Assembly: GCF_000024885.1 (NCBI RefSeq)
Contig: NC_013512.1
Location: forward strand, 682,001 to 746,000
Length of the DNA stretch: 64,000 bases
Source: Sulfurospirillum deleyianum DSM 6946
Lineage (GTDB): Bacteria > Campylobacterota > Campylobacteria > Campylobacterales > Sulfurospirillaceae
Direction: 5' to 3'
In this document: in pieces, positions 6,102 through 23,807 of the stretch
How the letters are laid out: every line of letters begins with the position of its first letter
Position numbering within the stretch: the first letter of the stretch is position 1
Notes under the pieces: model-generated
Database searches by the model: none
Seen by the model: only the letters and a program-made list of their open reading frames with translations
What the model was told of the DNA's origin: nothing
Translations under genes and position numbers: made by a program

Positions 6102-6176
6102 GCGGGTGTAGCTCAGTGGTAGAGTGTTAGCTTCCCAAGCTGAAAGTCGCGGGTTCGAGCCCCGTCACCCGCTCCA
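6102..6176 (+). tRNA. tRNA-Gly (anticodon CCC)
   Basis: A full cloverleaf can be drawn. The acceptor is GCGGGTG paired with CACCCGC, the D arm starts GCTCAGTGGTAGAG, the anticodon stem is TTAGC/GCTGA with loop TTCCCAA (anticodon CCC at 6134-6136), and the T arm is GCGGG-TTCGAGC-CCCGT. The discriminator T and CCA are encoded. It reads GGG codons. Confidence 0.95.
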
Positions 6177-6250: not shown

Positions 6251-6274
6251 AGTAGGCATTTAAAGCCTATTTTC
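6251..6274. terminator. Hairpin at the convergence of tRNA-Gly and the mcc operon
   Basis: AGTAGGC (6251-6257) pairs with GCCTATT (6265-6271), with one G-T pair and a 7-base loop, followed by TTCC. It overlaps the stop codon of the minus-strand gene ending at 6260 and lies where the two transcripts converge, so a bidirectional terminator is plausible. Confidence 0.45.
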
Positions 6275-6769
6275 CACGAGCAGATGGCGTACCATTGGAT
6301 GCCATAAGGTTTCACCCCTTTGGGCAAAGGTATAGACTTCATCAAAATAGTAATCTGCGGTATCATAAACATGAAATTCATAAGGGCTAAAGCCATATCC
6401 CATCGGTGTCATGCCTACCCGTGAATACCATGCGGTTTTAGCAGGGACATAACGCTCCGTGTCGGTGGCATAGACCCAAAGGGTTAAATTCTCCTTCTCT
6501 TCTTGTTTTTCAATCCACAAAAAAAAGCTTCCAATGTCATTAAAAAAGTAGGTATCGCCATTGGGTTTAATCGCTTGTGCGGTGTTGAAAAGCTCTAAAA
6601 TAGGAACATTATCTTGAGAACAGTAGTATCGCTCTAAGATAATTTCTAAAGGCTCTTTGGCGGTGTTGTTATGGACGACGTAGATTTTAGAGGGTTGGGT
6701 GTCACTAAAAGCAATGAGTAAACCTAAAATACCTCCCACACAAAGAAGTGCCAGCACGGTTTTTATCAT
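6260..6769 (-). CDS. NosL-like periplasmic protein (putative copper chaperone)
   Basis: The ATG at 6767-6769 overlaps the upstream gene's TGA (ATGA) and has AGGAG 8 bases upstream, so it is preferred over a start at 6817. The product has about 169 residues with an N-terminal hydrophobic anchor (MIKTVLALLCVGGILGLLIAF). The rest follows the NosL pattern: one Cys (YYCSQDN), FNDIGSFFLWIE, a central VYATDTERYVPAKTAWYSR and TPMGYGF. Family members bind Cu(I) and serve nitrous oxide reductase assembly. Here the CxxCGM signature is reduced to a single Cys. Its place at the end of the mcc operon suggests a role in supplying copper to MccA. That role is inference. Confidence 0.6.
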   Translation of the reverse strand: MIKTVLALLCVGGILGLLIAFSDTQPSKIYVVHNNTAKEPLEIILERYYCSQDNVPILELFNTAQAIKPNGDTYFFNDIGSFFLWIEKQEEKENLTLWVYATDTERYVPAKTAWYSRVGMTPMGYGFSPYEFHVYDTADYYFDEVYTFAQRGETLWHPMVRHLLVENRL

Positions 6770-7719
6770 AATAGGACTCCTGTAAGGAGATAGTAGTGCA
6801 CAAAATAGAAGGTACAAATCGTCGCACTCAGCACTAAAAAGAAAGAAGAGTACTTTAAGAGGCTATCGGTTTTAGCTCCTGTGATACGCTCAATCAAATA
6901 GGGCATCATCCCAAAAAAGATACCTAAAAAAAGAAAACCCCAAATAAAATAACCAATGTAGTAGTACTCTTTTTGTAACATACAGTAGGGGCATTTGTGG
7001 TTAGGCATTTCGTAAATATACAGACCAAAGAAGTAGGTAATGGCATAGTATCCCACAAATAAAAAGAGAAAATTGCACAGCAAGGTTGCGATTTTTTGTT
7101 TGAGGGTGTTGAGCACTAAAATGCTTACCAAAAGAAGGTAGTACAACGCCAATAAAAATTCTTGGGTATACCCAAAGGGGAGTTTGGGGGATTGAAAAAC
7201 CACCGAACAGCAAAAGACAGGCACTTTTAGGGGAATATTTGAAAAATAGATAATTTCTAGGGCAAATTCACTGCACAAGAGAATAAATAAAAAGCTAAAA
7301 AGCCAATATTTGGGTTTGAGATGGGGAAAATTGGGAGCAGTTAAATCCAATGTGTTAATGAGAAACCAAAGTCCTAGTCCAAAAATGAGCATCAGCTTTA
7401 AAAATAAAACCAAATTACCATACACGTTAGCTCCCACCACTCCAGCTGAGCACATGGCTCCGGGAACCACTCCTGCTAGGGAGTTAAGGGAGAGGATAAA
7501 AAAGAGAAAAAGAATGATTTTAACCGCAACCGTGAAGTACAAAATGGTATTGACCAGATAATTTTTTTTCTCTAAATGGTATTGCAAAGCAGTGCTACTC
7601 TCAAAATCCCAACGGCGTAAAATCAGGATAATGTTGCCCTGTGCAATGCTCATTAAGAGCAATAAAATGACCTCAATAAGCAAGAAAACGACAATTTCAG
7701 TGGATAAAAAGATACTCAT
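6766..7719 (-). CDS. Polytopic membrane protein with paired cysteines (mcc accessory)
   Basis: A 317-residue protein with about eight predicted membrane helices. I do not recognise a named family. Cysteines sit in small clusters: AMCSAG near 88, FCCSVV near 170, and HKCPYC near 243 followed by MLQKEYYYIGYFIWG. The CPYC pair resembles thiol redox or metal-binding motifs. The gene overlaps the ATPase gene upstream (start 7719, stop of that gene 7716) and the NosL-like gene downstream by four bases each, so translation is probably coupled. In context it could move or reduce copper, or handle the thiols that bind it. No direct evidence separates these options. Confidence 0.6.
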   Translation of the reverse strand: MSIFLSTEIVVFLLIEVILLLLMSIAQGNIILILRRWDFESSTALQYHLEKKNYLVNTILYFTVAVKIILFLFFILSLNSLAGVVPGAMCSAGVVGANVYGNLVLFLKLMLIFGLGLWFLINTLDLTAPNFPHLKPKYWLFSFLFILLCSEFALEIIYFSNIPLKVPVFCCSVVFQSPKLPFGYTQEFLLALYYLLLVSILVLNTLKQKIATLLCNFLFLFVGYYAITYFFGLYIYEMPNHKCPYCMLQKEYYYIGYFIWGFLFLGIFFGMMPYLIERITGAKTDSLLKYSSFFLVLSATICTFYFVHYYLLTGVLL

Positions 7720-8393
7720 GGAATTATTTCTCCATCTTTCATGTGTATGTATCTATCAATGGCTTTGGCTTCTTCAAATAAAACATCATGTGTTGCGACA
7801 ACAACGGTTTTGCCTAGGGCTTTAAAGGTATCTAACATTTCTATAAACAGACGGCTGTTTTGGGTGTCCAAGTTAGCGGTTGGCTCATCGGCTAAAATGA
7901 TGGGCGGATTCATCACTAAAGCCCGTGCAATCGCACAGCGTTGTTTTTCACCGCCACTCAAATCCGATACCCGTTGCCTTTTTTTATGGGCAATATTGGC
8001 AATGTCAAGAGCTCGCATGACTTTTTCCTCAATGTATGTGTGCGAAAGATGGCTGAGCATTAAAGGCGCTTGTACATTTTGTTCGACAGAAAGACCATTT
8101 AAAAGATTGAAGGATTGGAAGATAAATCCTATTTTTTCATGGCGGTAACGTGAGCTTAAAATATCAGGCAATTTAGCGATGTTTTCTTCTTCGACGATCA
8201 TATCGCCAGAGCTAGGTTTACTCAGTCCTCCCATCAAGGATAGAAGCGTGCTTTTTCCACTGCCACTCACCCCTTTTAAAATGACAATTTCACCCTTTTC
8301 AATCTCAATATTAATCGCTTTGAGGGCATGAAAGGCATTGGGTTTAGAGGCGTTGTAGATTTTATGGATGTCTCTTAGTATCATCTGTTTCAT
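7716..8393 (-). CDS. ABC transporter ATPase, LolD/MacB type
   Basis: A 225-residue cytoplasmic ATPase. It has Walker A GVSGSGKST near residue 41, Q-loop FIFQSFNLL, signature LSGGEKQRCAIARAL, Walker B IILADEPT and H-loop VVATHD. Sequence style and length fit the MacB/LolD/FtsE group, which powers mechanotransmission or lipoprotein and peptide handling at the inner-membrane face rather than classical import. It overlaps the FtsX-like permease gene by four bases and should form a complex with it. The location inside a sulfite reductase operon suggests a maturation task, by analogy to the NosDFY transporter in nos clusters, although NosFY belong to a different ABC type. Confidence 0.85.
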   Translation of the reverse strand: MKQMILRDIHKIYNASKPNAFHALKAINIEIEKGEIVILKGVSGSGKSTLLSLMGGLSKPSSGDMIVEEENIAKLPDILSSRYRHEKIGFIFQSFNLLNGLSVEQNVQAPLMLSHLSHTYIEEKVMRALDIANIAHKKRQRVSDLSGGEKQRCAIARALVMNPPIILADEPTANLDTQNSRLFIEMLDTFKALGKTVVVATHDVLFEEAKAIDRYIHMKDGEIIP

Positions 8394-9505
8394 CGTACCG
8401 CCTCGCTCATATCAGCAATGGCAATTTTCCATGAGGGAAGAATCACACACGCCAAAAAAGGAATGACACTAAAGATAAAGAGTAAAAAAAGCATATTCAT
8501 ATCCACAATGGGGGTAAATTCAACGCTGTGTTCAAGTTCTGAGCCTAAGAAAATCGAGCGAAGCAGAGGTGCTTGAAAGAAAAAGACATAAAGGTAAGCA
8601 ATGCCCACACCTGATAAAAACGCACTCAAAGCAACCGTGCTGTTTTGGATAAACTTAATTGCAATAATATCTTTAATGCCATAGCCAATGCTACGCAAAA
8701 TCGCAATCTCTTTTTTCTTTTCGCCATAGACAAGGCTGATTTGGTTTTTGAGCAAAATGAGAAAAGAGACCATGCAAACAAGGTATAAAATCATAAATAC
8801 GCCTCCTTTGTAGTAAAAAAGGTGTTGGTAATTTGCCAATATCTCCTCTTTGGAAGTAGCTTTCACATAGGGCAAAGTCTCCACAATTTTAAGGGTGAGT
8901 TCGCCGACTTCATTAGGGTTTGGAACGGTGACATAGAGTTTGGAGTAGTGCTCCATCCCCAAATCCAAAACGGCTCTGGCATTGGCAGGATGCATATAGA
9001 TCACATCGTTACACAGAAGGTTGGTGGCTTTGGATTCGATTTGCTCGATGTTAAGGGAGATTTTTCCTTTGGGGGTAAAAAAGTTAAAACTATCTTCATA
9101 ATGCCACGCTTTAATGGCGGTGTAGACACCACTGCCTACTCGCATCTTTCCTAAACTTAAGGAGCTATCACCCATGACATGAAACCAAACACGCCCTTGA
9201 GCAAAGTAGTAGTAGCCATCCACGGCTCCTTCCACCGCAGTGACTCCCGTCAGCGATTCGATGGCTTCTTTATCCTCTTCACTTAAGGTATAGGCTCTCC
9301 CTGCTAAGGTGTTTTCAACCACAATATCGGGTTGAAATAAGGTGGCTGCTTTTAAATCACTTTGAATGGCATCAGAGACAAAAAGCACACCACTTAACAA
9401 GGTTACGATAAACGTAAAAATTAAAAAACTAAAAAGATGATCGGCTTTGTCTTTGAGCAGTAAGACAATGGCATATTCACTCAGGTTTTTAGGGAACATA
9501 GACAA
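8390..9505 (-). CDS. MacB/FtsX-type ABC permease
   Basis: A 371-residue inner-membrane protein with the four-helix layout of this family. It has one N-terminal helix (about 22-45), a large periplasmic domain (about 50-235), and three C-terminal helices with the family pattern (KKKEIAILRSIGYGIKDI near 263-280). The partner ATPase gene overlaps its stop. The periplasmic part contains one Cys (NLLCNDV). Possible work: passing conformational energy to periplasmic copper chaperones or to apo-MccA. Family assignment is firm; the cargo is unknown. Confidence 0.8.
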   Translation of the reverse strand: MSMFPKNLSEYAIVLLLKDKADHLFSFLIFTFIVTLLSGVLFVSDAIQSDLKAATLFQPDIVVENTLAGRAYTLSEEDKEAIESLTGVTAVEGAVDGYYYFAQGRVWFHVMGDSSLSLGKMRVGSGVYTAIKAWHYEDSFNFFTPKGKISLNIEQIESKATNLLCNDVIYMHPANARAVLDLGMEHYSKLYVTVPNPNEVGELTLKIVETLPYVKATSKEEILANYQHLFYYKGGVFMILYLVCMVSFLILLKNQISLVYGEKKKEIAILRSIGYGIKDIIAIKFIQNSTVALSAFLSGVGIAYLYVFFFQAPLLRSIFLGSELEHSVEFTPIVDMNMLFLLFIFSVIPFLACVILPSWKIAIADMSEAVR

Positions 9506-9677
9506 ATCCTTTATAAGCGCTCTCTTTAAAACTAAGGGAGAGCTCTGCGTGTTTCATCCGTGCGGCAAGGGATTGAATCTCTTTTTCTTTGGTTTGGAAT
9601 TCAAAGCTTAACGCATGGAGGATGATGACGCTATAGAGTAGCCCAAAAAAGAGGGCTACATAGCGTAGGGTTTTCAT
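9489..9677 (-). CDS. Small single-helix membrane protein between nosL and the ABC permease
   Basis: 62 residues: one N-terminal membrane helix (YVALFFGLLYSVIILHAL) followed by a short helical tail rich in Lys, Glu and Gln. It overlaps the double NosL gene by four bases at its start and the permease gene by 17 bases at its end, so it is embedded in a coupled operon and is likely translated. No known family recognised. It may be a small subunit of the ABC complex. Confidence 0.6.
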   Translation of the reverse strand: MKTLRYVALFFGLLYSVIILHALSFEFQTKEKEIQSLAARMKHAELSLSFKESAYKGFVYVP

Positions 9678-10726
9678 AGGCTTTTGAGCGTCTTTTCGCT
9701 AATGTCATCAAAGCGTAAAAGACGTTTTCCACTGTGGTCTTTCATAAACGAAACGGCTTCACTTTCGCTCGCAAATGGAATTAGCTCCGCTCCCATGGGC
9801 CCATAGACATTTGCGCCAATGACATAAAAGGCTTTGGTTGCATTGAGTTTTTTCAAGCTGTAATAATCGCTTACATAGATGTGTTCAAAATGTTTTTTTT
9901 GTGCAAAAATATACTTCATCATATCTTTGACGCCATCAAAATAGAGCGGTTTTTCAGGGGTTTCAATCACAGCAACCCATTGGGGGTATTTGGCAACGAA
10001 CATACCGCATACAGGGCATTTTGCATCGCTTGGAACGATGATTTTTTCTTCCGCTACAGAGGGTGTTGTGCCTGCTTTATGATCCCAAAGATACAAAGCG
10101 ACCATTTGGTATTGACCTTCTGATTCGAGTCGGCATGCTTTTTTGAGGGCTACTTTTAGAAGCGCTATGTTTGCAAAAGAGGCAGCATTGACTTTTTCAC
10201 AACCGTTGTTATAGAGTTTTTCACCCATGCCATAGACAGAGCGCTCACGTTTGTTTTTAAGCATGGCACTATCTTTTGCAAAATCTTCTTTGGCAATGGC
10301 ATACGCCTCTTCAAATTTGACGATGCGACCACCATTTTCCTCTTGAAAAGTTTTGGCATCGGCTTCTCTTACAAAGGCATACTGGCTGTTCATAGTCATG
10401 GTGCCAGGTTTGGAGCTTCCTACGACATAAAAAGCGTTGATTGCCTCAATAAAGCCTAAATTTTTGGTATCAATCACTTTGGCATCTTTAGGAAACACTC
10501 CTTTGGTGTCTTCGACTAAACAGTGGATGGAACAGTATTGGTGGTCTTTGTGTGCATGGCTGGTTTTTTGAAACTTCACCAAATCCATACCGCAGTTGGG
10601 GCAGTAACGCTTCGCATCACCGCTTTGAATAAGAACCGCTTTCTCTTCTGGAACACTTTGGAACATCTCTTGTGCAAAGCTTAGATTTAAGCACAGAGCA
10701 AAGAGCATGATGATTTTTTGGAACAT
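9674..10726 (-). CDS. Exported protein with two NosL domains
   Basis: 350 residues with a signal peptide (MFQKIIMLFALCLNLSFAQ). Domain 1 (about 25-145) has CPNCGMDLVKF, HAHKDHQYCSIHC and a Tyr-rich NosL core. Domain 2 (about 235-345) has CPVCGMFVAKYPQW, FDGVKDMMKY and GPMGAELIPF. The CxxCGM motif is the Cu(I)-binding signature of NosL, the chaperone of nitrous oxide reductase. No nosZ is present here. MccA is known in Wolinella to be a heme c-copper enzyme, so these domains are well placed to deliver copper to it. The middle segment (about 150-230) links the domains and carries two further Cys. A TTACATGTAA copy sits just before the start. Confidence 0.8.
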   Translation of the reverse strand: MFQKIIMLFALCLNLSFAQEMFQSVPEEKAVLIQSGDAKRYCPNCGMDLVKFQKTSHAHKDHQYCSIHCLVEDTKGVFPKDAKVIDTKNLGFIEAINAFYVVGSSKPGTMTMNSQYAFVREADAKTFQEENGGRIVKFEEAYAIAKEDFAKDSAMLKNKRERSVYGMGEKLYNNGCEKVNAASFANIALLKVALKKACRLESEGQYQMVALYLWDHKAGTTPSVAEEKIIVPSDAKCPVCGMFVAKYPQWVAVIETPEKPLYFDGVKDMMKYIFAQKKHFEHIYVSDYYSLKKLNATKAFYVIGANVYGPMGAELIPFASESEAVSFMKDHSGKRLLRFDDISEKTLKSL

Positions 10727-10747: not shown

Positions 10748-11596
10748 TTAATGGCTATGAGGAGATTTGAGGATACGCACATTGTCGCATCCCACCTGAA
10801 GCCCTTGTGCACAGCTTTGCTCAAAAAGCTCATAAGCCTTTTGTTCATCCAAAGCAACGCCTTTTCCCTCCGCATATAAAATGCCCAAATCATTGCATCC
10901 TTGAGCAAAGTGATTGCTACACGCTTTTTGATAATACTCACTGGCTTTTTTATAATCTTGTATGACGCCCTTGCCTGTGGAGTAGAGCAAGCCTAGATTG
11001 TCACATGCCATTGCTATGTTGGCGTCGCAGGCTTGATGGTAGAGTTCACTTGCTTTTTTATCGTCTTGAAAAACGCCTCTGCCATTGGCGTATAAAAATC
11101 CTAGATTGTTACAGGCATAAGCATTACCACTTTGACACGCTTTTTGATAGAGTTCACTGGCTTTTGTGTAATCTTGTTTGATTCCAGCACCATTGGCGTA
11201 TAAGAGCCCTAAACTGTTGCAAGCGACATCATCATCGTCTTGGCAGGCTTTCTCATAAAGCGCTTTGGCTTTGGATAAATCTTGTTTGACTCCTTGGGCT
11301 TCGACGTACATCAACCCTAGGTTGTAACATGCGGAACTAAAGTTTTGCTCACATGCCTTTTCATAGAGTTCTCGTGCTTTATTAAAGTCTTTGGCGACAT
11401 TGCCATTGCCCTCTTGATAGACAACGCCTAGGTTATAACACCCTGTTGCCTTTCCCTCTTTACACGCTTTATCGTAAATCTCGACCAACTTTTGATGATC
11501 TCCATTCTCTTTGGCTTCCATGCCCTCTTTGATAAACCCTGCAAATGCACATATCGCACTGAGGCTTAGGCAAACTATAAAGCGGTTTGTTTTCAT
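10748..11596 (-). CDS. Cysteine-rich Sel1-repeat (Hcp-like) secreted protein
   Basis: 282 residues: a signal peptide (MKTNRFIVCLSLSAICAFAG) and seven 36-residue Sel1-like repeats. Each carries a Cys pair eight residues apart, for example ACEQNFSSAC, ACQSGNAYAC and ACDANIAMAC, and a YNLGxxYxxGxGVxQD core. Helicobacter cysteine-rich proteins (Hcp) have this design, with a disulfide in each repeat. The solenoid probably serves protein-protein contacts in the periplasm, perhaps during MccA assembly given the operon position. Palindrome copies flank the gene at 10737 and 11615. Confidence 0.85.
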   Translation of the reverse strand: MKTNRFIVCLSLSAICAFAGFIKEGMEAKENGDHQKLVEIYDKACKEGKATGCYNLGVVYQEGNGNVAKDFNKARELYEKACEQNFSSACYNLGLMYVEAQGVKQDLSKAKALYEKACQDDDDVACNSLGLLYANGAGIKQDYTKASELYQKACQSGNAYACNNLGFLYANGRGVFQDDKKASELYHQACDANIAMACDNLGLLYSTGKGVIQDYKKASEYYQKACSNHFAQGCNDLGILYAEGKGVALDEQKAYELFEQSCAQGLQVGCDNVRILKSPHSH

Positions 11597-11629: not shown

Positions 11630-14329
11630 TTAAATCGTGCGAACATGACGTCCACGATACGCTAAAAAGCAGAGGAGCATGAGTGCTAAAAGCGTATAAT
11701 ACACTCCCTCTGGAACAGTAGGACTCTCGCCTGTTGCAGCATACGAGTGCATTCCCGTGAGGTAGAAATTTACCCCAAAGTAGGTCATAAGGATGGAGGA
11801 AAACCCAAACACAGACGCCACCGAGAAGGAGAAGAGCGAGTAGATCTTTGGGACAAAACGCAGGTGCAAAATGAACGCATAGACGATAATGGAAACATAC
11901 GACCACGTCTCTTTAGGATCCCATCCCCAGTACCTGCCCCATGACTCATTCGCCCAAATACCCCCAAAAAAGTTTCCTACCGTAAGCATGGAAAGTCCGA
12001 TAATGAGGCTAAGTTCATTGATGGTGGCGAGGGTTTTAATTTGCTCGTTAAATGCTATTTTACTGCTTTGTTTTTTGAGTGCCATTAGCATAAGTGTTAT
12101 GATGCCAAGCAGAGCACCCAAGCCTAAAAATCCATAACTAGCGGTAATCACCGAGACATGAATACTCAGCCAGTACGATTTTAAAACAGGTACGAGGTTG
12201 GTAATTTGGGGATTGACAAAACTCATGTGGGCAACCAACATCATAATGCCCGCAAAAATAGCCGCAGCACTCAGCGATAAAAGCGAGCGTCTAAAGACAA
12301 CCATTCCCGCAAACGCTGCTGACCATCCAATGTAGACCATAGACTCATACGAATCACTCCATGGAGCATGCCCTGAAATATACCAGCGAAGCCCTAGCGC
12401 AAAGGTGTGAGCGATAAGAGCCAGTGCAAAAATCAGAAGGATAGATTTTTCTACTAAGACAAACTGTTTTTGACTCAGTAGGCTAAAGAGCGCTAGACAA
12501 AAAGCAATACCTCCTAAGATGAAATAAAGAGGAATCAGTCTTTGAAAGAGGGCTAAACGGTTGTAAAGCACCTCCGCTTGAACATGTGTTTGAGAAGGTA
12601 ATATCTCCAAAGCGTGTACGGTTTGGTAATTTTTGAGGGTGTAAAGCGCTTGAGAAGCTTTTTCCCATTGGTTCTGATTAATTCCCTCTTGCACGCCTGA
12701 AAAGTAGTGACTCAGCGCATTTTTGATTTCAGGGGCGATTAAAGGGTTAGCAAAGGCATCATTGGGGCTTAGCCATGTATGGTTTTTATCCTCAGGCAGA
12801 GGAATAAATTTAAAGAGTACTCCTTTAAAGATGAGGTAGGCGATGTTGAGTTTTTCATCAAATTTAATGAGTTCATTTTCAAAGGTGCCCCGTTTGGATT
12901 GAGGTTTTTGGTTGGCTTCATTGATCGCCTGAGCCAATTTATAGGCACCATTTGCATCAAAAACCTGAGAAAAAGCGACATATGCTTGCTCTTTTGGCAG
13001 GTTAAGTAGCTCTTTAATGCGTGCATTGTTGAGTGTGACGAGTGGAATATCTTGCCACATTTGAGGCTGAGCACTCATCCCTAAAATCATCTGTTCAGCG
13101 CTTAAATGATAAAAGCTATTGCGACCGCTGAGTTTGTAGATAAGTTCTACCGCTTGCGTGCTAAAAGGCTTAATGCGCCCTTGCATATCTTGTACCAAAA
13201 GGGTACTTAGCTCCTCTTTGGCATGGAGAGCACTGTTGCGTGAGAGTTGTTCCAAATAGGCGTTAGTGTCTGCCTTGAGTATGGGTGTGCTGAGGCATCC
13301 AAAAAAAAGCAAAACCATCACCAGTTTGCTCTTTTGCAAAGAGGCTTTTAACGTTAAAAAACGGCTTTTTTGAGTAAAAAAGTTGCTTAAAAAGCCAAGG
13401 GTTAAAAGAAAATACCCCGCATACGTTGGCCATTTTCCGGGGTCCTTGTTGATTTCTAAAACGGTTCCTTTTTCATCCAAATCGTAAGAGGATTGGAAAA
13501 AGGTGTAGCCTTCATAGTGTAAGGGGTGGTTCATAAAAATAGTGTAAGGAAAAAGTGCTTTTTGGTGGCTATCTAACACCTCGATGTCACTACTGTAAGA
13601 AGAGGGGCTCATAGAGCCTGGGTAGCGTTTTAACTCAAAATCTTTTAAGCCTAAAGAGAAGGGAAGGGGAACCACTTTTGATCCCCATGTCAGAGCAACA
13701 TCCATCTCGTTAAAGGAGATGACCACAGGCTCTTCAACCCATCCAGCACCTCCATGCAAGGTTTGGGTAAACATCTCTGTGCCATAACTGACATAAACCT
13801 CAAGGCTAGAGCGTTCCCCTTTTCCTGCATAGTGATACTCTTTATAGGCGACACTTAAGGGTTTTCCATGGATTACATGTAAAAAAGAAAACGTATTATC
13901 TCCTAGTTGCCCTAGGAATAAAGGGTGTTCAAACGATGCTTCAGAGGTTTGAAGGTGTAAATACGGCACAACCGTGATCATCTCATTTTCATGCTCGCCT
14001 TCTCGAATGTGAATAATCCCTTCATACCCAAAATAGCGGGTGAGTCCAGCTCCTATTAAAATCACCACAAATGCGCTGTGTACCAAAAATGAGCCTAAGC
14101 GTTTCCACATCCGTGTCTTATAGATAAAACCGACAAGGCTTAAGATTAAAAGCACCATGACCGCTTCATACCACCTCGCATCATAGATGAGTATTTTAGC
14201 GGTTTGGGTATCGTAGGCACTTTCGATAAAGGTCGCAACACCGCCACCAATGCCTAAAAGTGCCAATAAAAACAGTACCATACCGTATGAAAAAAGAAGA
14301 CGAACCACACCTTGAAACACTCGCATCAA
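11630..14329 (-). CDS. ccsA1: CcsBA-type cytochrome c heme ligase for MccA
   Basis: An 899-residue fused CcsB-CcsA system II cytochrome c synthase in the inner membrane, which exports heme and attaches it to CXnCH motifs in the periplasm. The ResB/CcsB part spans about 1-320, a periplasmic linker about 350-600, and the CcsA part the C-terminal 300 residues. The tryptophan-rich WWD heme motif (WANESWGRYWGWDPKETW) is near residue 795. In Wolinella the equivalent gene, next to mccABCD, is dedicated to the unusual CX15CH heme of MccA. Its gene follows mccD by six bases. A second paralogue (nrfI) lies at 23.8 kb. One TTACATGTAA copy (13873) encodes Leu-His-Val here. Confidence 0.9.
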   Translation of the reverse strand: MMRVFQGVVRLLFSYGMVLFLLALLGIGGGVATFIESAYDTQTAKILIYDARWYEAVMVLLILSLVGFIYKTRMWKRLGSFLVHSAFVVILIGAGLTRYFGYEGIIHIREGEHENEMITVVPYLHLQTSEASFEHPLFLGQLGDNTFSFLHVIHGKPLSVAYKEYHYAGKGERSSLEVYVSYGTEMFTQTLHGGAGWVEEPVVISFNEMDVALTWGSKVVPLPFSLGLKDFELKRYPGSMSPSSYSSDIEVLDSHQKALFPYTIFMNHPLHYEGYTFFQSSYDLDEKGTVLEINKDPGKWPTYAGYFLLTLGFLSNFFTQKSRFLTLKASLQKSKLVMVLLFFGCLSTPILKADTNAYLEQLSRNSALHAKEELSTLLVQDMQGRIKPFSTQAVELIYKLSGRNSFYHLSAEQMILGMSAQPQMWQDIPLVTLNNARIKELLNLPKEQAYVAFSQVFDANGAYKLAQAINEANQKPQSKRGTFENELIKFDEKLNIAYLIFKGVLFKFIPLPEDKNHTWLSPNDAFANPLIAPEIKNALSHYFSGVQEGINQNQWEKASQALYTLKNYQTVHALEILPSQTHVQAEVLYNRLALFQRLIPLYFILGGIAFCLALFSLLSQKQFVLVEKSILLIFALALIAHTFALGLRWYISGHAPWSDSYESMVYIGWSAAFAGMVVFRRSLLSLSAAAIFAGIMMLVAHMSFVNPQITNLVPVLKSYWLSIHVSVITASYGFLGLGALLGIITLMLMALKKQSSKIAFNEQIKTLATINELSLIIGLSMLTVGNFFGGIWANESWGRYWGWDPKETWSYVSIIVYAFILHLRFVPKIYSLFSFSVASVFGFSSILMTYFGVNFYLTGMHSYAATGESPTVPEGVYYTLLALMLLCFLAYRGRHVRTI

Positions 14330-14335
14330 AACCCC

Positions 14336-15295
14336 TTAAGCACTAAACGTTTGTCCAGCGTATAAAATAAATAGCCGCAGTGATAAAACACCTAAAACAC
14401 TTGCCATACCGCTGATATAAAAGCTCATACGACTATGCGCCACTGTTTTTCCTAAGAAAAAGTTGAGTACCAAAGGCACACCAAATCCAAGCCCAACAAC
14501 CCCAACCCAAAACAGATGACGATAACTTCCTTCAAAAAAGGCAACCGCTGCATCTTTATCGACGTTTGTACCGACGATTAAAGAGACAAAAAGCATAAAA
14601 AGAAGCAACATCTCGAGCGCCATAATAGGCCACTCAAGGGTGTGCAGGGTTTTCATATCGCCATGATGCGCATCTGCTTTGAAAAAATACGCAGCAATCA
14701 CGCTTGAAAATGCCGTTCCTGCTGAGAGTCCAGAGACCACAAACAAAGCAGGTAAAATAGCGGTATTTAAGAGAGGAAAACGCACCAAAACAGAGATAAG
14801 AAAACCTGTATACGCACACACCACCAACGCAAAAATAAAGGCTAAGAGGTGAATCATTGGACGTAAAGGTTTAATCCATGCAAAGAGAAAAAAGAGTTTT
14901 GCAAGGGGTGTTTGCCCTAAACGCTCTTTGATCCATGCCTCAAAAACCAAAACAACGATAAGAAACGTGAGTGGAATGTACAGACACAGTGCTAAAACAC
15001 CAATAGACATTACCGATGTAAAATTGTAGTTAATGAGAATTTTCCAAAAGTAAAGCGGTTTTTCCAAATCGCCTACTAGAAAAATCATTCCCAGCGCAAT
15101 CGTGACAAAAGAGACAAGTGAAGCTGCTTTTAAAAGTGGGGTCTCTTCGGTTTGCTTTTGATAGTAGCGAAGTGCTAGTGCGATAATCAGCGCACCGCCT
15201 GAAATACCAGCTAGTAGCAAGTAAACGCCAATGGGCCAACCCCATTCCACACCGTGTGAAAATCCCACACTAAATTCTATGGATTCATTCATCAT
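14336..15295 (-). CDS. mccD: MccD, NrfD-type membrane quinol dehydrogenase subunit
   Basis: 319 residues with eight to nine membrane helices of the NrfD/PsrC family, starting MMNESIEFSVGFSHGVEWGWPIGVYLLLAGISGG. NrfD proteins bind menaquinol and pass electrons to a four-cluster iron-sulfur partner, here MccC, encoded immediately upstream with a one-base overlap of stop and start. The pair should feed electrons from the quinone pool to MccA. Order and length agree with the mccABCD operon of Wolinella succinogenes. Confidence 0.88.
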   Translation of the reverse strand: MMNESIEFSVGFSHGVEWGWPIGVYLLLAGISGGALIIALALRYYQKQTEETPLLKAASLVSFVTIALGMIFLVGDLEKPLYFWKILINYNFTSVMSIGVLALCLYIPLTFLIVVLVFEAWIKERLGQTPLAKLFFLFAWIKPLRPMIHLLAFIFALVVCAYTGFLISVLVRFPLLNTAILPALFVVSGLSAGTAFSSVIAAYFFKADAHHGDMKTLHTLEWPIMALEMLLLFMLFVSLIVGTNVDKDAAVAFFEGSYRHLFWVGVVGLGFGVPLVLNFFLGKTVAHSRMSFYISGMASVLGVLSLRLFILYAGQTFSA

Positions 15296-15966
15296 TAAAC
15301 TCCTGTCTTAACAATAGGGATGTAGCGAAGACTTGGTTGCGTCCCAAAGGAGGGTTTCATACGCACCGAATCTTTTACATGTAAAAGCTGGTTGATATAC
15401 GATGCTTCATCGTTTAAATCACCAAAGACTAAGGCTTTGTATTTGCAGGCTTGTACACACGCAGGTTCTTCGTTTTTGGCAAAGTTGGTGTTAAAACAAA
15501 AATTGCAGTTCTCTGCGGATTTGGTTTCATGGTTGATAAAGCGCACATCATAAGGACATGCGACAATGCAATATTTACACGCAATACAATCGTTTGTATT
15601 CATGGTGACAATACCCGTTTTTTCATCCCTGTAACAGGCGTTGGTGGGACAGACATTAACACAAGGTGCATCCACGCACTGTTGGCACGATACACGGGTG
15701 TATCGTTTTTCCAGTGGGGTATTGGGGTCTGTTTTGTTTTCGACATAAAGTCGTGCTTGTTTTTTTGGTACGGCATTGGTCTTTTTGCAGGCGACCTCAC
15801 ATTCGGTACAGCCCACACATTTATTTTGATCAAAAATCATGCCATAGTGTGGTTTTTTAGGTTTCTCTTCTTCTTGCGTTTGGGTACTGTGCCCAACAGT
15901 ACTCAAAACAAGAGAGCTGATTCCTAAATATTTTAAAAAATGTCTTCGTTTTGTATCTTGTTCCAT
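15295..15966 (-). CDS. mccC: MccC, exported four-[4Fe-4S] electron transfer subunit
   Basis: 223 residues. The N-terminus KRRHFLKYLGISSLVLS is a twin-arginine signal. Four Cys clusters follow: CVGCTECEVAC, CQQCVDAPCVNVC with a later Cys, CIACKYCIVAC, and CNFCF with ACVQAC. This matches the NrfC/PsrB ferredoxin family. It should carry electrons from MccD to the periplasmic octaheme MccA. A TTACATGTAA copy inside the gene (15375) is read as Leu-His-Val and extended to a 16-base palindrome. The start at 15966 is preceded by a GGGGGAGACGAG ribosome site. Confidence 0.9.
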   Translation of the reverse strand: MEQDTKRRHFLKYLGISSLVLSTVGHSTQTQEEEKPKKPHYGMIFDQNKCVGCTECEVACKKTNAVPKKQARLYVENKTDPNTPLEKRYTRVSCQQCVDAPCVNVCPTNACYRDEKTGIVTMNTNDCIACKYCIVACPYDVRFINHETKSAENCNFCFNTNFAKNEEPACVQACKYKALVFGDLNDEASYINQLLHVKDSVRMKPSFGTQPSLRYIPIVKTGV

Positions 15967-16000: not shown

Positions 16001-16792
16001 CTACAGTTTTTTAAGTGGTTGATGGGTCTCTAAGGCCTCTTTCTTTGCTTCTTCACTGAGTGGTTTTGCACTGTTGTTCAAGGCACCTGGTTTTAAGACT
16101 TTCACCAATTCCACTTCAAAAATGACCGTTGAACCAGCAGGAATCGCTTGAACATCCGCATTACCATACGCCAATTCGCTAGGAATGACTAGTTTTGCTT
16201 TCTCGCCCTCATGCATGAGCATCAAACCCTCTTGTAAGCCATCTACCACGTTAATCATGGAAAGATGTGCGGGTTGTTTTCTCTCATACGTATTGTCAAA
16301 GACTGTACCATCCAGTAAGCTTCCTTTATAATGAATCAAGACAATGCTCTCAGGTTTTGGCTTTTCACCTTTTCCCTCAGTGATTTTTTCATACTGAAGT
16401 CCTGATTTTGTGGTGATGACATGTTTGTTTTTAGCATTGGTCGCAAGATATTTTTTGCCCGCATCTAAATTGGTATTGAGCTGTTGCTTAAATCTCTCTT
16501 GGCTGATTTTATTTAAACCCTCTGCTCGATTGTTAAGATGGGTGATAACTTCTTCATCGCTGAGCTTTTGCTTTTTTTTGAGCGCATCCATAAAGCCTTC
16601 AATCACCGCTTCCATATCTGCTTTGACACCAAATTCTGATTGTTCAAAAAGTTGATTTGCAATATAAGCGCCTGTAGATACGCCCATACTGTAAGATTCT
16701 TTTTGCACATCTGTTTTAAGCTCAACCGTAAACCCTTCTGTGGCTAAACAAAGAAATAGAAACAACCCAATAGAGATTTTTTTACCACTCAT
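16001..16792 (-). CDS. mccB: MccB, periplasmic FKBP-type peptidyl-prolyl isomerase
   Basis: The ATG at 16790-16792 has AAAGG at good spacing; an ATG at 16798 is too close to it. A signal peptide (ISIGLFLFLCLATEG) is followed by an FkpA-type dimerisation domain (about 30-110) and an FKBP domain (about 125-235) with VLIHYKGSLLDGTVFDNTYER, LMHEGEKAKLVIPSELAYG and IPAGSTVIFEVEL. It should help fold MccA in the periplasm. Its position directly after mccA, separated by two hairpins, matches the Wolinella mcc cluster. Confidence 0.9.
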   Translation of the reverse strand: MSGKKISIGLFLFLCLATEGFTVELKTDVQKESYSMGVSTGAYIANQLFEQSEFGVKADMEAVIEGFMDALKKKQKLSDEEVITHLNNRAEGLNKISQERFKQQLNTNLDAGKKYLATNAKNKHVITTKSGLQYEKITEGKGEKPKPESIVLIHYKGSLLDGTVFDNTYERKQPAHLSMINVVDGLQEGLMLMHEGEKAKLVIPSELAYGNADVQAIPAGSTVIFEVELVKVLKPGALNNSAKPLSEEAKKEALETHQPLKKL

Positions 16793-16817
16793 AATCATGC
16801 CTTTACCGTAAAAAATG

Positions 16818-16870: not shown

Positions 16871-18943
16871 TTAGAGATTTTTCTTCATGACCCGTTGCGC
16901 TTCATTAATATACTCAACCGCTGCATCTAAGCGTTGTTTGGTATATTTAAATCCATGCACACCCCATGAACCGTCTTTTTCGATTAAATCAACAGTATCT
17001 TGAGCTTTTTCGATGAGCTCATACACACGTGCTTTATCCGAAGGTGCTAATTTTTTCACTTCAAGCAGAGAGTAGAGTCCTTGAATACCCACTTTGACTT
17101 GTGTAAATTCGTCTTTGACAGGTGTTTGCCATCCCATCACTTCGTTATAGACTTGTTTTTGGTCTTTAAAGTGAAGTGTCTCTTTGAGTTCAGAGTTAAT
17201 AGGACTATGACACCCTTTTGCATCAACTTGGTCTTTATCTGCCCATGTTGTACGTGCACATGCCCACATTAAATCTACAAAGTTACGGCCATCTTTATTA
17301 CGCTCAAAATGCCAATCTTTGGTATCACGAGGACCTGTTGCCGCAGAACTGGCTACCATTGTTTTCATTTTTGGATCGACTTCGATTTTCCACATATGAG
17401 AGCGGCGTTGGGTATCAAAGCCTGCTTGATCTTGGAATTGGATAGCGTAGAAGTTTTCACAACTCATCAAAAATGGCATATGGCAGGTCGCACAACTGTT
17501 TTTGCTGTGTGTGTCTGATTTTGAATGAATGTAGGCTTGTTCTTTATGACAATCCGCACACTCTTTTTTCAATTTTGGTTTGGTATAGAATGAACTTAAA
17601 TAGCCTTGGTTGGCGTTGTAATTCATTCCTTTGACATCTTTTTCCCCTGCTAAATCACCTGTAACATCGTGTGGATCATGGCAGGTCGCACAACGCATAC
17701 CTTTTTGGTAGTGTGCTGTAAAATAAGATTGCGCACCCTCAGTACCACAACCAGGTCCCATGGATTTGAATTTAGAACTAAATGCCAAATCAGGTTTGCC
17801 GACATTAAGTGGGTTGTTTCTTGCTAAATCAGGACTGTAAGAGAAGCGTTGGTGACAGCGTTCACAGTTAGAAATCAGTAAGCCCGAACTACCTTCTAAG
17901 TGACCTCCTGCGCCATGACACTCTTCACATGAAACACCTTTAGAGATGGTATGTTTTTGTAGCTCTTTTGGATTTCCCAATGCGGCATAGAACTCGTTTT
18001 GGTTTTTAAAATCAAACTTCCACGGGTGGCATACTTCACAATAGGAAGTTGACGCCTGAAATGACATTGATTTTTTGTATTTGGCGGCATACGATGCTAA
18101 GCCTCGTACATATCCACCATTGTCACCATACTCTTCAAGCGTTACAGGAAATTCAGGTATCCACTTCTTGATTTTTTTAGCTACTTCAGGGCTTAAGTTG
18201 TATGCCCATGTACGTTGCCATTGGTTAGCACCTGCTGTAATTTGACCTGTACCATTTTTCAACAAACCTCCCTCAACATGGTAGGTTCCACGTAACAACC
18301 ATGCGTCAAAAAAGCCCATTTTTGTTCTAAGGTGACCTATAGTACAATAGATGACATCAGGTGTAATACCTTGAGGTAAAATGGATGCAGTGTCTTTGTC
18401 AAAGACAGGCTCATTCAGTTTGTTATTGACCTCTGGGTGTTCGCCTGGGAAACGGACTGTGGTGGCGTGTCGTGATCTGCTCCAGGTCTCATACTGCGCA
18501 GGGTGACACTCACCACACTTCTCTGGTCCTATGAATTTATTGGGATATTGCAGGGTTGAATTACGTGCAACCCGATACATCATAGAACTAAACCCTTCAC
18601 CACCGCTTCGTTTTGAGGCTTTAGAAAAATCAACCCCATGACCCTCTTCAAGCCACTCATGACCACGGTCTCCAACGACGAGTTTTCCCACCGTTTTCCC
18701 ACCGTATTTGGTAAAAATAGGGTGATTTTTAAAGAGCCAGTCATACATGGCTTTCTCTTCAACAATATAGTCTTGCAAAGAGATAACGCCTCTGCTCTCT
18801 TTTGTTCCCTTAGGATTTGCAATGACCTCTCTTGCCTCCTTACTCATTTGCATGCCTTCCATAGCACCAGCGCTGGTTGCGCTAATGGCACAGAGACTGG
18901 TACACATGAATAAACCAAGTAACACTTTGTCCCATTTTCTCAT
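16871..18943 (-). CDS. mccA: MccA, octaheme cytochrome c sulfite reductase (heme c-copper enzyme)
   Basis: The ATG at 18943 (MRKWDKVLLG) is preferred over a frame start at 18967 because AAAGGAGGAAAC precedes it. 690 residues with a signal peptide. Seven CX2CH heme motifs occur in order: CGECH, CEVCH, CEECH, CERCH, CATCH, CADCH, CATCH. An eighth has the unusual spacing CX15CH (C562 to C578-H579), the signature of MccA, which reduces sulfite to sulfide with six electrons. The Wolinella enzyme holds Cu(I) between two Cys at the active heme; candidates here are the Cys in GPGCGTEG and in FLMSCENF. Located in the periplasm. First structural gene of the operon; mccRS lie upstream on the same strand. 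Confidence 0.95.
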   Translation of the reverse strand: MRKWDKVLLGLFMCTSLCAISATSAGAMEGMQMSKEAREVIANPKGTKESRGVISLQDYIVEEKAMYDWLFKNHPIFTKYGGKTVGKLVVGDRGHEWLEEGHGVDFSKASKRSGGEGFSSMMYRVARNSTLQYPNKFIGPEKCGECHPAQYETWSRSRHATTVRFPGEHPEVNNKLNEPVFDKDTASILPQGITPDVIYCTIGHLRTKMGFFDAWLLRGTYHVEGGLLKNGTGQITAGANQWQRTWAYNLSPEVAKKIKKWIPEFPVTLEEYGDNGGYVRGLASYAAKYKKSMSFQASTSYCEVCHPWKFDFKNQNEFYAALGNPKELQKHTISKGVSCEECHGAGGHLEGSSGLLISNCERCHQRFSYSPDLARNNPLNVGKPDLAFSSKFKSMGPGCGTEGAQSYFTAHYQKGMRCATCHDPHDVTGDLAGEKDVKGMNYNANQGYLSSFYTKPKLKKECADCHKEQAYIHSKSDTHSKNSCATCHMPFLMSCENFYAIQFQDQAGFDTQRRSHMWKIEVDPKMKTMVASSAATGPRDTKDWHFERNKDGRNFVDLMWACARTTWADKDQVDAKGCHSPINSELKETLHFKDQKQVYNEVMGWQTPVKDEFTQVKVGIQGLYSLLEVKKLAPSDKARVYELIEKAQDTVDLIEKDGSWGVHGFKYTKQRLDAAVEYINEAQRVMKKNL

Positions 18944-19121: not shown

Positions 19122-20537
19122 TTAAAACATAAGTGTAAAGATAACACCTTCTTCACTGTTTTTTACATGTAAAGAGGCGTTGTTTTTGTGCATAATCATT
19201 TGACTCATATAAAGCCCCAGCCCATTGCTAGACTCTTTGGTCGTTACATGAGGCTCAAAGATTTTATCTATAAGGTCAGGGTCTATCGTGCCTGCATTGT
19301 TAAAAAGGGTAATAATGGGCGTTGTATTTTCTACAAAGGCTCTAATTTCTATCACGCGTGTAGGTGTTTGGTGCGCTATAAAAGCCTCTTTTGCATTGTT
19401 CATAATGTTAATGAGCACTTGAACAATTTCATTGGGATAGCCTAAATGGATAAAATTTTCTTTTATCTCAATACGTACGTCAATGGCGTATTTTTCTAAA
19501 GAAGCACTGAGCAATCGCTTTGCTTGATAGATGATTTCTTGTGCGCTAAACTCTTTTTTTGAACTATTTGGGGCAAAAAAGTTTCTAAAATCATCAATCG
19601 TATTGGACATGAAACTTAGCTGTTCATTGGCTTCTTTTATTTTTTGTGTCAGTTTTTCTTTGGTGAGTTTATCTTTTTCACTGTGCAATTCAAGATTAAT
19701 CAAAATAGCGCTGACTTGTGCTAAGGGTTGACGCCACTGATGCGAAATATTGCCTATCATTTCGCCCATCGAGGCAAGTCTGTTTTGACTCATCATCAGC
19801 ATTTGATTATTTTCTTGTAGTTTAAGTTCACTTTTGTGAATTTTATAGAGAAAAAAGATAAACAACATAAAGACGATGAGCATGACCGTTCCCCCTACGA
19901 TAAACTCTTTGACATGATACGTTAGGATGCTCAAAACGGGGATTTTAAAGGTAATCATTGCGATAACATCACCTACGTTACTTTTAAATTCGGGAATACT
20001 ATGATACTGCTCCACCATGCGTTTAGGTGCGCTGTTGGCAACATGACACTCCACACAGGAGGGGTGAGAGTTGCGTATAGGAAGCCCTACAAAAAAGTAA
20101 GGAGTTTTGTTTTCTGTAATAATATGCGAATACTCTTCATACACACCCTCTTTCAAATCATCTAAAATCTCATGCTCAAAGTCATTCCCTTCATGGGCGG
20201 GATTAAGAGGGTTATAGGCAATAAGTTTGTAATCATAATTGATATTTTTTTTCATACGCTGAATTTCATAAATAGAGCGGGTGATATACGTTGATGAGAG
20301 CAAACGTGGATCAAAAAAATCATGCACTAACATTTTTTTCTCTTTAAGCTCCTCAATCAGCGGACGCTGGACAATGGAGACATAATCACGAATAGCATTC
20401 ATCGTATCAAGCACGGTAATTGCCTCTTGTCTGGCATCTTTAAGGGCAAGTTCTCGATAAAAGTTGAAAAACAAAAGGGTAATAATCGCATACAAAAGCA
20501 CAAAAAGGAGGGTAATAGCTTTAAAGTTGTATTTCAC
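19122..20537 (-). CDS. mccS: MccS-like sensor kinase with a periplasmic heme c motif
   Basis: 471 residues. TM1 is at about 7-27 and a periplasmic domain (about 30-210) of DUF3365/Tll0287-like appearance contains SCVECHVA, with CVECH at residues 161-165, a c-type heme attachment site. TM2 is at about 212-235. The H-box MGEMIGNISHQWRQPL and ATPase boxes (NAKEAF, FNNAGTI, FEPHVT, SSNGLGLYMS) follow. The heme suggests direct redox, NO or sulfite sensing. The GTG start overlaps the end of the response regulator gene by 17 bases. In Wolinella a two-component system accompanies mcc; control of mcc is inferred from position here. A TTACATGTAA copy (19163) is read as Leu-His-Val. Confidence 0.85.
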   Translation of the reverse strand: MKYNFKAITLLFVLLYAIITLLFFNFYRELALKDARQEAITVLDTMNAIRDYVSIVQRPLIEELKEKKMLVHDFFDPRLLSSTYITRSIYEIQRMKKNINYDYKLIAYNPLNPAHEGNDFEHEILDDLKEGVYEEYSHIITENKTPYFFVGLPIRNSHPSCVECHVANSAPKRMVEQYHSIPEFKSNVGDVIAMITFKIPVLSILTYHVKEFIVGGTVMLIVFMLFIFFLYKIHKSELKLQENNQMLMMSQNRLASMGEMIGNISHQWRQPLAQVSAILINLELHSEKDKLTKEKLTQKIKEANEQLSFMSNTIDDFRNFFAPNSSKKEFSAQEIIYQAKRLLSASLEKYAIDVRIEIKENFIHLGYPNEIVQVLINIMNNAKEAFIAHQTPTRVIEIRAFVENTTPIITLFNNAGTIDPDLIDKIFEPHVTTKESSNGLGLYMSQMIMHKNNASLHVKNSEEGVIFTLMF

Positions 20538-21225
20538 ACACGTATCCTACCCCATAAAGATTTTTAATGAAATCACTGTGAATCTTTTTGCGTAACTCTT
20601 TGACAATGGATTTTAAGGCTTCTTTGCTGGGTTGTTCAAACTCCCACATGTATTCAAAAAGCTGTTCATAGGTGATGGTTTGGTTGGGACGTTTTAAAAA
20701 GTACTCCAACAATCGGCTCTCACTTTTGGAGAGATGCAAGGTATTTTGATGAAGAGTAATTGTTTTACGACAATAATCATACACGCACTCAGGCATAATA
20801 GAGATCACAGGTTGGTGATCAACCAGTTCAAGAGCAACATCTTCCAATGCTTTAATTAAGGTGTTTTTATCGTAGGGTTTGGTGAGGTAGCGTGTGATTT
20901 TAAGCTCAACGGCTCGCCAAAGATACTCTTGTTCCGTATGGGCTGAGAGAATGATGATAGGAATTTTTTTATTGACTTGACGAATTTTTTTAACCACTTC
21001 AAGTCCATCCATGTGTGGAATAGAAACATCCAACATCAACACATCATAGATGTTGCCTAAGGCTTCTTCTAACGCTTCACGTCCATCTTTAACGCCTACA
21101 ACTTTGCCAAAAAAAAGTTCCAAAGACTCCATAATATTGCAGAGAATAATCGCTTCATCTTCTACGCATAAAACATTTTTATCTGATAGAATATCTAAAA
21201 GGTTATAGGTGTTCATTGTGTGCAT
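20521..21225 (-). CDS. mccR: MccR-like OmpR-family response regulator
   Basis: 234 residues: a receiver domain (about 13-125) with acidic pocket VEDE, phospho-acceptor Asp in DVLMLDVSIPHMDG and Lys in TKPYD, then a winged-helix DNA-binding domain (about 150-232) with LSKSESRLLEYFLKRPNQTITYEQLFEYMW. It is first in a two-gene unit with the kinase and divergent from nrfH. An alternative ATG lies three codons in, at 21216. Likely target: the promoter in front of mccA (18944-19121). That is inference. Confidence 0.85.
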   Translation of the reverse strand: MHTMNTYNLLDILSDKNVLCVEDEAIILCNIMESLELFFGKVVGVKDGREALEEALGNIYDVLMLDVSIPHMDGLEVVKKIRQVNKKIPIIILSAHTEQEYLWRAVELKITRYLTKPYDKNTLIKALEDVALELVDHQPVISIMPECVYDYCRKTITLHQNTLHLSKSESRLLEYFLKRPNQTITYEQLFEYMWEFEQPSKEALKSIVKELRKKIHSDFIKNLYGVGYVCEIQL

Positions 21226-21617: not shown

Positions 21618-22151
21618 GTGAAAAATAGTAATTTCCTAAAATACGCAGCATTGGGTGCTTTTATCGTAGCCATTGGTTTTTTTGTTTACATGCTTAATGC
21701 ATCTAAGGCGCTGTCGTATCTCTCCAGTGATCCTAAGGCCTGTATCAACTGTCACGTCATGAACACGCAATACGCAACATGGCAACACAGTTCACATGCT
21801 GAACGGGCCACATGTGTCGATTGTCACTTACCACGGGACAACATGGTAAACAAATATATCGCAAAGGCCATTGATGGGTACAACCATAGTATGGCATTTA
21901 CGTTTAATACGTATAAAAATGCGATTAAAATCAGTGACAATGGTGCGCAAAGAGTTCAGGATAATTGTATCTCTTGCCATAAAAGTCTGACTTCAGGCAT
22001 GGTAAACAACAGTGATAAGTATCATAATTATGATGATCCAAGTGTCGCTACGGGCAGACGATGTTGGGAGTGTCATAAAGGCGTACCTCATGGCAAGGTA
22101 AGAGGTCTTACCACAACACCTAATGCGTTGGGTGTTAAAGAAGTTAAGTAA
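21618..22151 (+). CDS. nrfH: NrfH, tetraheme membrane quinol dehydrogenase
   Basis: 177 residues of the NapC/NirT/NrfH family. One N-terminal membrane helix (about 8-28) anchors a periplasmic domain with four heme motifs: CINCH, CVDCH, CISCH and CWECH. It oxidises menaquinol and hands electrons to NrfA, with which it forms a stable complex in Wolinella and Sulfurospirillum. The GTG start has AAGGAGGAAAT directly upstream. nrfA follows after eight bases. Confidence 0.95.
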   Translation: MKNSNFLKYAALGAFIVAIGFFVYMLNASKALSYLSSDPKACINCHVMNTQYATWQHSSHAERATCVDCHLPRDNMVNKYIAKAIDGYNHSMAFTFNTYKNAIKISDNGAQRVQDNCISCHKSLTSGMVNNSDKYHNYDDPSVATGRRCWECHKGVPHGKVRGLTTTPNALGVKEVK

Positions 22152-22159
22152 AAGGAAGG

Positions 22160-23710: not shown

Positions 23711-23719
23711 GTATGATTG

Positions 23720-23746
23720 AAGATGAAGGGGTTTCTCCTTCATCTT
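23720..23746 (+). terminator. Hairpin between nrfA and nrfI
   Basis: AAGATGAAGG (23720-23729) pairs perfectly with CCTTCATCTT (23737-23746) across a 7-base loop, followed by TATG rather than a long T-run. It probably gives partial termination or 3-prime protection, so that nrfHA is expressed more strongly than nrfIJ. Confidence 0.6.
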
Positions 23747-23807
23747 TATGTTATACTAAAGTGACGTAAGGATGACGTTATTTTCGTATAACATAAAGGA
23801 TTTTGTG

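Follow-up and report, generated by a model that had tools for sequence, protein, structure and literature searches.

Among the described systems that mature periplasmic copper enzymes, the closest to the locus considered here is NosL together with NosDFY, a Cu(I) chaperone and an ABC transporter that serve the CuZ site of NosZ (NosL in PDB 7osf-7osj and 7znq). NosL has been characterised as a chaperone for Cu(I) and contains a CxM motif (PMC6530538). A second point of reference is provided by the type VII ABC systems such as LolCDE, MacB, BceAB, FtsEX and HrtBA. In addition, the sir operons of Shewanella presumably carry nosLDFY-like genes. In the literature that was searched, from which the original mcc operon papers fell outside, no function has been assigned to the gene block described below.

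This block lies in a window of 64,000 nucleotides of the Sulfurospirillum deleyianum DSM 6946 genome (a single contig of 2,306,351 bases), downstream of the genes for the octahaem sulfite reductase MccA. Like NosL and NosDFY, it combines a NosL-family chaperone with an ABC ATPase and permease, and its genes adjoin that of a periplasmic copper enzyme. In contrast to NosDFY, there is no NosD, the permease is of the FtsX/LolE type rather than NosY, an eight-helix cysteine-rich membrane protein and a second NosL-domain protein are added, and in nos clusters both systems occur together. The permease fold and ATPase family are shared with the type VII ABC systems, but the block has no Lol, MacA, BceS or EnvC partner and is instead linked to NosL and copper enzymes. 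In the mcc operon of Wolinella succinogenes, this block recurs with its genes arranged identically.

From mccA to the last block gene, the locus forms a single minus-strand operon run with gaps of at most 72 bases (Table 1). An earlier note on this DNA had listed the block genes and proposed that they form a copper-insertion machine dedicated to MccA, and its account of the genes and their strand agrees with the open reading frames and Pfam matches. As it had also described, most junctions overlap by four bases (exactly four at four of the five), while the fifth, between the 62-aa protein and the permease, overlaps by 17 bases with a TTG start or by 11 with the ATG at 9499. The single-NosL frame starts at the ATG at 6769 and encodes 169 aa rather than 185, and the 62-aa protein substitutes for a 101-107-aa protein of other cassettes. 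The mccA frame is open to 18967; its start is probably the ATG at 18943, and numbering from there places the ligands at C399 and C495. The copper ligands of MccA, which we take to be Cys399 and Cys495, both align in the S. deleyianum protein, which has seven CXXCH motifs and one CX15CH. Two features flank this run. Just past the block end is a plus-strand tRNA-Gly (ccc) gene (6102-6176), and on the other side the plus-strand genes for NrfH, NrfA and one more CcsA-type haem lyase (21618-26183) point away from the mcc cluster, so that two multihaem reductase systems stand back to back.

Table 1. Features of the mcc cluster and the adjoining block (positions in the window), followed by the loci of a second MccA lineage.
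Feature	Position	Strand	Basis
Response regulator, mccR position	20521..21225	-	mcc cluster gene order
Sensor kinase, mccS position	19122..20537	-	mcc cluster gene order
mccA, octahaem c-copper sulfite reductase	16871..18943	-	phmmer vs PDB 4rkm MccA, 1501 bits, full length
FKBP-type prolyl isomerase, mccB position	16001..16798	-	PF00254/PF01346
4Fe-4S protein, mccC position	15295..15966	-	sequence; conserved order
NrfD-type quinol dehydrogenase membrane subunit, mccD position	14336..15295	-	PF03916
ccsA1, ResB/CcsA haem lyase	11630..14329	-	PF01578, PF05140
Sel1-repeat protein, constant in mcc operons	10748..11596	-	PF08238
Double NosL protein, N domain CPNCGM...YCSIHC, C domain CPVCGM	9674..10726	-	PF05573 twice, 1.7e-45
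62-aa single-TM protein	9489..9677	-	recurs at equivalent position across loci
FtsX-type permease with periplasmic domain, type VII ABC	8390..9505	-	PF02687, 9e-10
LolD/MacB-type ATPase	7716..8393	-	PF00005 (ABC_tran), 5.5e-32
317-aa membrane protein, 8 TM helices	6766..7719	-	without Pfam family
Degenerate single NosL domain, CxM copper motif lost	6260..6769	-	hhalign to NosL alignment, probability 96; motif table
Second MccA lineage	L101:10145-14196, L102, L103, L104, L105, L106, L107, L108, L110

Both PF05573 domains of the double NosL protein score above the cut-off and each contains CGM, and the C domain matches NosL of PDB 7osf/7znq at 1e-15. The small protein at the end of the block has no Pfam match, and its homology to NosL is remote, being detected by hhalign. 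It had been described earlier as a single-Cys NosL-like protein, which holds for its periplasmic part; another Cys lies in the signal anchor. Relatives of this single NosL outside mcc operons keep the CxM motif in 68/68 cases, as do the deep-branching mcc members, whereas 18 of the 28 mcc members, including that of S. deleyianum, have lost it. For the permease, an AF2 model (pLDDT 82) matches LolE/MacB in Foldseek at 1e-16, and also BceB and HrtB. The nosY reference has no match among the genes of the locus, and Pfam and Foldseek both place the permease with FtsX, which bears out the suggestion that the ABC family differs from that of NosFY. A MacAB-TolC arrangement is not found either: the ATPase and permease are separate proteins, and the operon contains no gene for a MacA adaptor or TolC.

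The 317-aa membrane protein contains the motifs AMCSAG, CCS and CPYC that had been noticed previously. It is modelled with eight membrane helices (pLDDT 87), and M89, C90, C170, C171, H241, C243 and C246 (the motifs MC, CC and HxCPxC) are invariant in 120/120 sequences. These residues lie in three loops on one face of the model, and because Lys and Arg are concentrated on the opposite face, the five Cys, the Met and the His are predicted to be on the periplasmic side. The protein belongs to no Pfam family and has no DsbB or VKOR match even at E 1; against the PDB there is no sequence match and no Foldseek match under E 1. VIA-align gives mostly four-helix matches (top Z 12, residues 1-165), which fall in the common range of generic helix bundles and were therefore rejected as PDB relatives. 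Furthermore, in one Sulfurospirillum genome (G011) the membrane protein and the single NosL are fused into a 488-aa frame in both copies (L035:7168-8634 and L036:6792-8258), which suggests that the two proteins make contact.

The distribution of the cassette was surveyed in 397 Campylobacterota genomes, using the eight-helix membrane protein to score it, an identity of at least 64% to define close MccA relatives, and the NosZ model above its cut-off. The membrane protein is present in 161 genomes, close MccA in 55, NosZ in 125 and NosL in 187. All 55 genomes with close MccA have the cassette (Fisher p=4e-25), and in 54 of them the two are linked on the same strand, 9.3-13.3 kb apart; in the remaining one mccA is at a contig end. 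NosZ is similarly associated, with the cassette in 100/125 NosZ genomes vs 61/272 without NosZ (p=1e-27), and NosL occurs in 161/161 genomes with the membrane protein vs 26/236 others. As the sample includes many close relatives (e.g. Campylobacter concisus-like genomes), these p-values overstate independence. The cassette is lacking from 25/125 nosZ genomes, and nosZ and mccA of any kind are both absent from 42 of the genomes that have it. Named cassette loci are nearly all from Campylobacterota. Separately, a Krumholzibacteriota MAG (L218:6630-12184) has the full cassette with a DsbD_2 gene at an even G+C across the locus, likely a transfer between phyla.

These counts bear on the proposal in the earlier note in several ways. 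Co-occurrence with mccA was found as proposed, but the supposed separation from nosZ was not, given the frequency of the cassette in NosZ genomes. The note had offered confinement of the block to mccA genomes as its own test, and 106 of the 161 block genomes are without close MccA. Moreover, the S. deleyianum genome itself contains a second complete cassette without mccA (2.178-2.182 Mb), in the order small protein, permease, ATPase, membrane protein, single NosL and double NosL. Exclusive dedication to MccA can thus be discarded, and the block without mccA, together with the second copy, indicates an MccA-specialised lineage of a general cassette and not a machine invented for MccA. The parallel with NosL and NosDFY is plausible in its logic, with a different ABC family, but nos-linked copies stand beside NosDFY, so the block is not a general replacement for it. 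In S. deleyianum, neither nosZ (whose absence near mccA had been pointed out) nor NosD (model TIGR04247) was found anywhere in the genome, and as such NosDFY cannot be the loader there.

In other Sulfurospirillum genomes, one copy of the cassette interrupts the nos cluster: nosF and a NosL-like gene lie on one side of it and nosY on the other. Further copies are standalone. A five-gene insertion in the nos cluster of S. cavolei, of which only an ABC permease and ATPase were mentioned, was left uninterpreted, with no function or mcc link given (PMC4794192); it is very probably the nos-linked copy of the cassette, since the surveyed loci show the same insertion. Within mcc operons the gene order is constant in Sulfurospirillum, Wolinella, Campylobacter concisus, C. 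showae and Arcobacter. In a tree of 120 membrane proteins of the eight-helix family, the mcc-linked proteins form one clade of 27 (SH-aLRT 95), comprising 25 labelled members and two (L143 and L154) from mcc loci cut by contig ends. This clade, which is the part of the dedication claim that holds together with the 55/55 co-occurrence, is nested among nos-linked copies, its nearest neighbours being nos-linked (support 94), while the nos label requires at least 12 changes on the same tree. Judged from this tree, the pattern fits a single recruitment of a nos-type cassette into the mcc operon. Distance correlations between MccA and the cassette proteins (r 0.8 for most) are no better than those with mccC/mccD and show only common descent. 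For the standalone copies, the only conserved neighbours that might point to a client were a DsbD_2 (PF13386) protein and apparently unrelated genes; the former has a GHCxGMCGG motif and is encoded no more than 5.5 kb from the cassette at 34 loci, either nos-linked or standalone (e.g. L196:1798-2511), and at no mcc locus.

A second MccA lineage in other members of the phylum (Table 1) has 45-52% identity, CX17CH or CX18CH, and both copper-ligand Cys, and loss of the ligands was therefore rejected as the reason for which it lacks the cassette. Its mccA is in a different operon, with a rhodanese-multihaem-cytochrome b (b561) protein. Among 43 genomes with this lineage, seven have the cassette, linked in none found, and eight have any NosL, so that there is apparently another route by which an MccA-type site acquires its copper. 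This contrast restricts how far the cassette can be called necessary for MccA-type enzymes in general. At one locus (L106), a Sco1/SenC gene stands beside the second-lineage mccA. A TGA inside the mccA of G011 was considered as a selenocysteine codon and dismissed, as it lies ahead of the part encoding the mature protein and does not coincide with a ligand.

We regard the block, with a probability of roughly 0.6, as that lineage of a Campylobacterota cassette for NosL-coupled copper delivery which has become specialised for MccA. The best reading of the general cassette is a NosL-coupled type VII ABC system that delivers Cu(I) to periplasmic enzymes and of which one lineage is specialised for MccA. 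It is counted as copper-linked because it is associated with two unrelated copper enzymes, MccA and NosZ, and because its NosL domains carry the CxM motif of a characterised Cu(I) chaperone. The cassette is widespread and previously undescribed, and it would represent a form of NosL-dependent copper assembly that relies on a different ABC family and on a membrane protein family absent from the libraries used. Its probable function is the ATP-dependent loading of periplasmic enzymes with copper, and the client of the copy in the mcc operon is most likely MccA. That copper is what is moved, in which order and direction it passes along, how ATP takes part and that MccA receives it are inferred.

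On this basis, the exported double NosL would bind periplasmic Cu(I) through its CxxCGM motifs and pass it to the eight-helix protein, whose five Cys, Met and His could form a periplasmic acceptor site. The LolE/MacB-type ABC pair may then use cytoplasmic ATP to move its periplasmic domain, so that Cu(I) would pass in one direction only to Cys399/Cys495 of apo-MccA. A model for such ATP-driven permease motion is FtsEX, which transmits mechanical force (PMC11491553). The single NosL domain might serve as a docking part whose own metal site has been lost in most mcc lineages. In a broader form, for which we would put the odds a little short of even, a mechanotransmission type VII ABC system and an eight-helix protein with a five-Cys copper site insert NosL-derived Cu(I), through conformational work driven by ATP, into structurally unrelated copper enzymes, the client being switched by paralogue recruitment from nos to mcc.

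Several other explanations were weighed against copper delivery to MccA. It is conceivable, though unlikely, that the block is a thiol-redox module in which a DsbB/VKOR-like membrane protein keeps the Cys ligands of MccA or NosZ, or thiols at haem sites, in the right state while NosL binds copper alongside. The five invariant periplasmic Cys, including CPxC, and the DsbD_2 neighbour of nos-linked and standalone copies would suit this role, but the membrane protein has neither a Pfam match to DsbB/VKOR nor a usable structural match, the placing of Met89 beside Cys90, together with His241, suits Cu(I) binding, and the ABC pair and the strict dependence on NosL would be left unexplained. Export of copper, a response to copper stress or flux sensing by a BceAB- or MacB-like pump, in place of enzyme loading, appears improbable: the fold matches of the permease and the many standalone copies are compatible with it, whereas the cassette is placed in enzyme operons in a fixed order and not with resistance genes, and the operon provides no MacA or TolC partner.

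Less probable again is a function in haem or lipoprotein handling for the octahaem enzyme, such as haem export to CcsA1 or lipoprotein release. The haem exporter HrtB and LolCDE are among the fold matches and the haem lyase gene ccsA1 is in the same operon, but nos-linked and standalone copies have no ccsA1 neighbour, scores against the LolC/E equivalog (35.6 vs a cut-off of 362) and LolD (189.5 vs 308) are far too low, and NosL dependence is again unaccounted for. It seems scarcely credible that the cassette acts on a different enzyme and has simply been kept in the mcc operon. One genome (G004, L029:2226-7125) does have IS-like genes where mccA, the gene for the isomerase and the beginning of mccC would be expected, yet it retains the cassette along with the remainder of the mcc operon, and this persistence counts in favour of such hitchhiking; the linkage in 54/55 genomes, the constant order over several families, the single clade and the separate copy that most Sulfurospirillum genomes hold for other purposes all speak against it.

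Copper delivery by an MccA-specialised cassette would be directly testable in W. succinogenes, a tractable laboratory organism which has both the cassette and the solved MccA. One surveyed genome (G186, locus L121), which we take to be that of W. succinogenes and the source of the solved structure, has an MccA 88% identical to that of S. deleyianum. Its nosZ match consists of two parts separated by about 1.3 kb, which gives it the look of an interrupted gene (G186:C1:870653-873755). Since the cassette accompanies most nitrous oxide reductases of Campylobacterota, it may supply a component of N2O respiration that has so far been overlooked in this phylum and, if the reading is correct, metal insertion would be added to the known jobs of FtsX-type ABC systems. 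The cassette also defines a membrane protein family, recognisable from its invariant motifs, that has no relative in Pfam or the PDB.

Some mcc operons contain further genes. Between the ccsA1 and Sel1 genes of four loci (L126:10723-11991, L127:11596-12864, L128:11370-13165 and L121:10024-10557) are extra genes for a protein with a CxxxCxxC radical-SAM-like start (HemN-like in appearance) and/or a membrane protein of the UPF0093 (HemJ-like) type, which gives the impression that these operons bring their own haem supply. At a locus of the Sulfurospirillum family, a second MacB-type ABC pair and a COX1-like gene lie directly downstream of the mcc block (L128:1726-4980).
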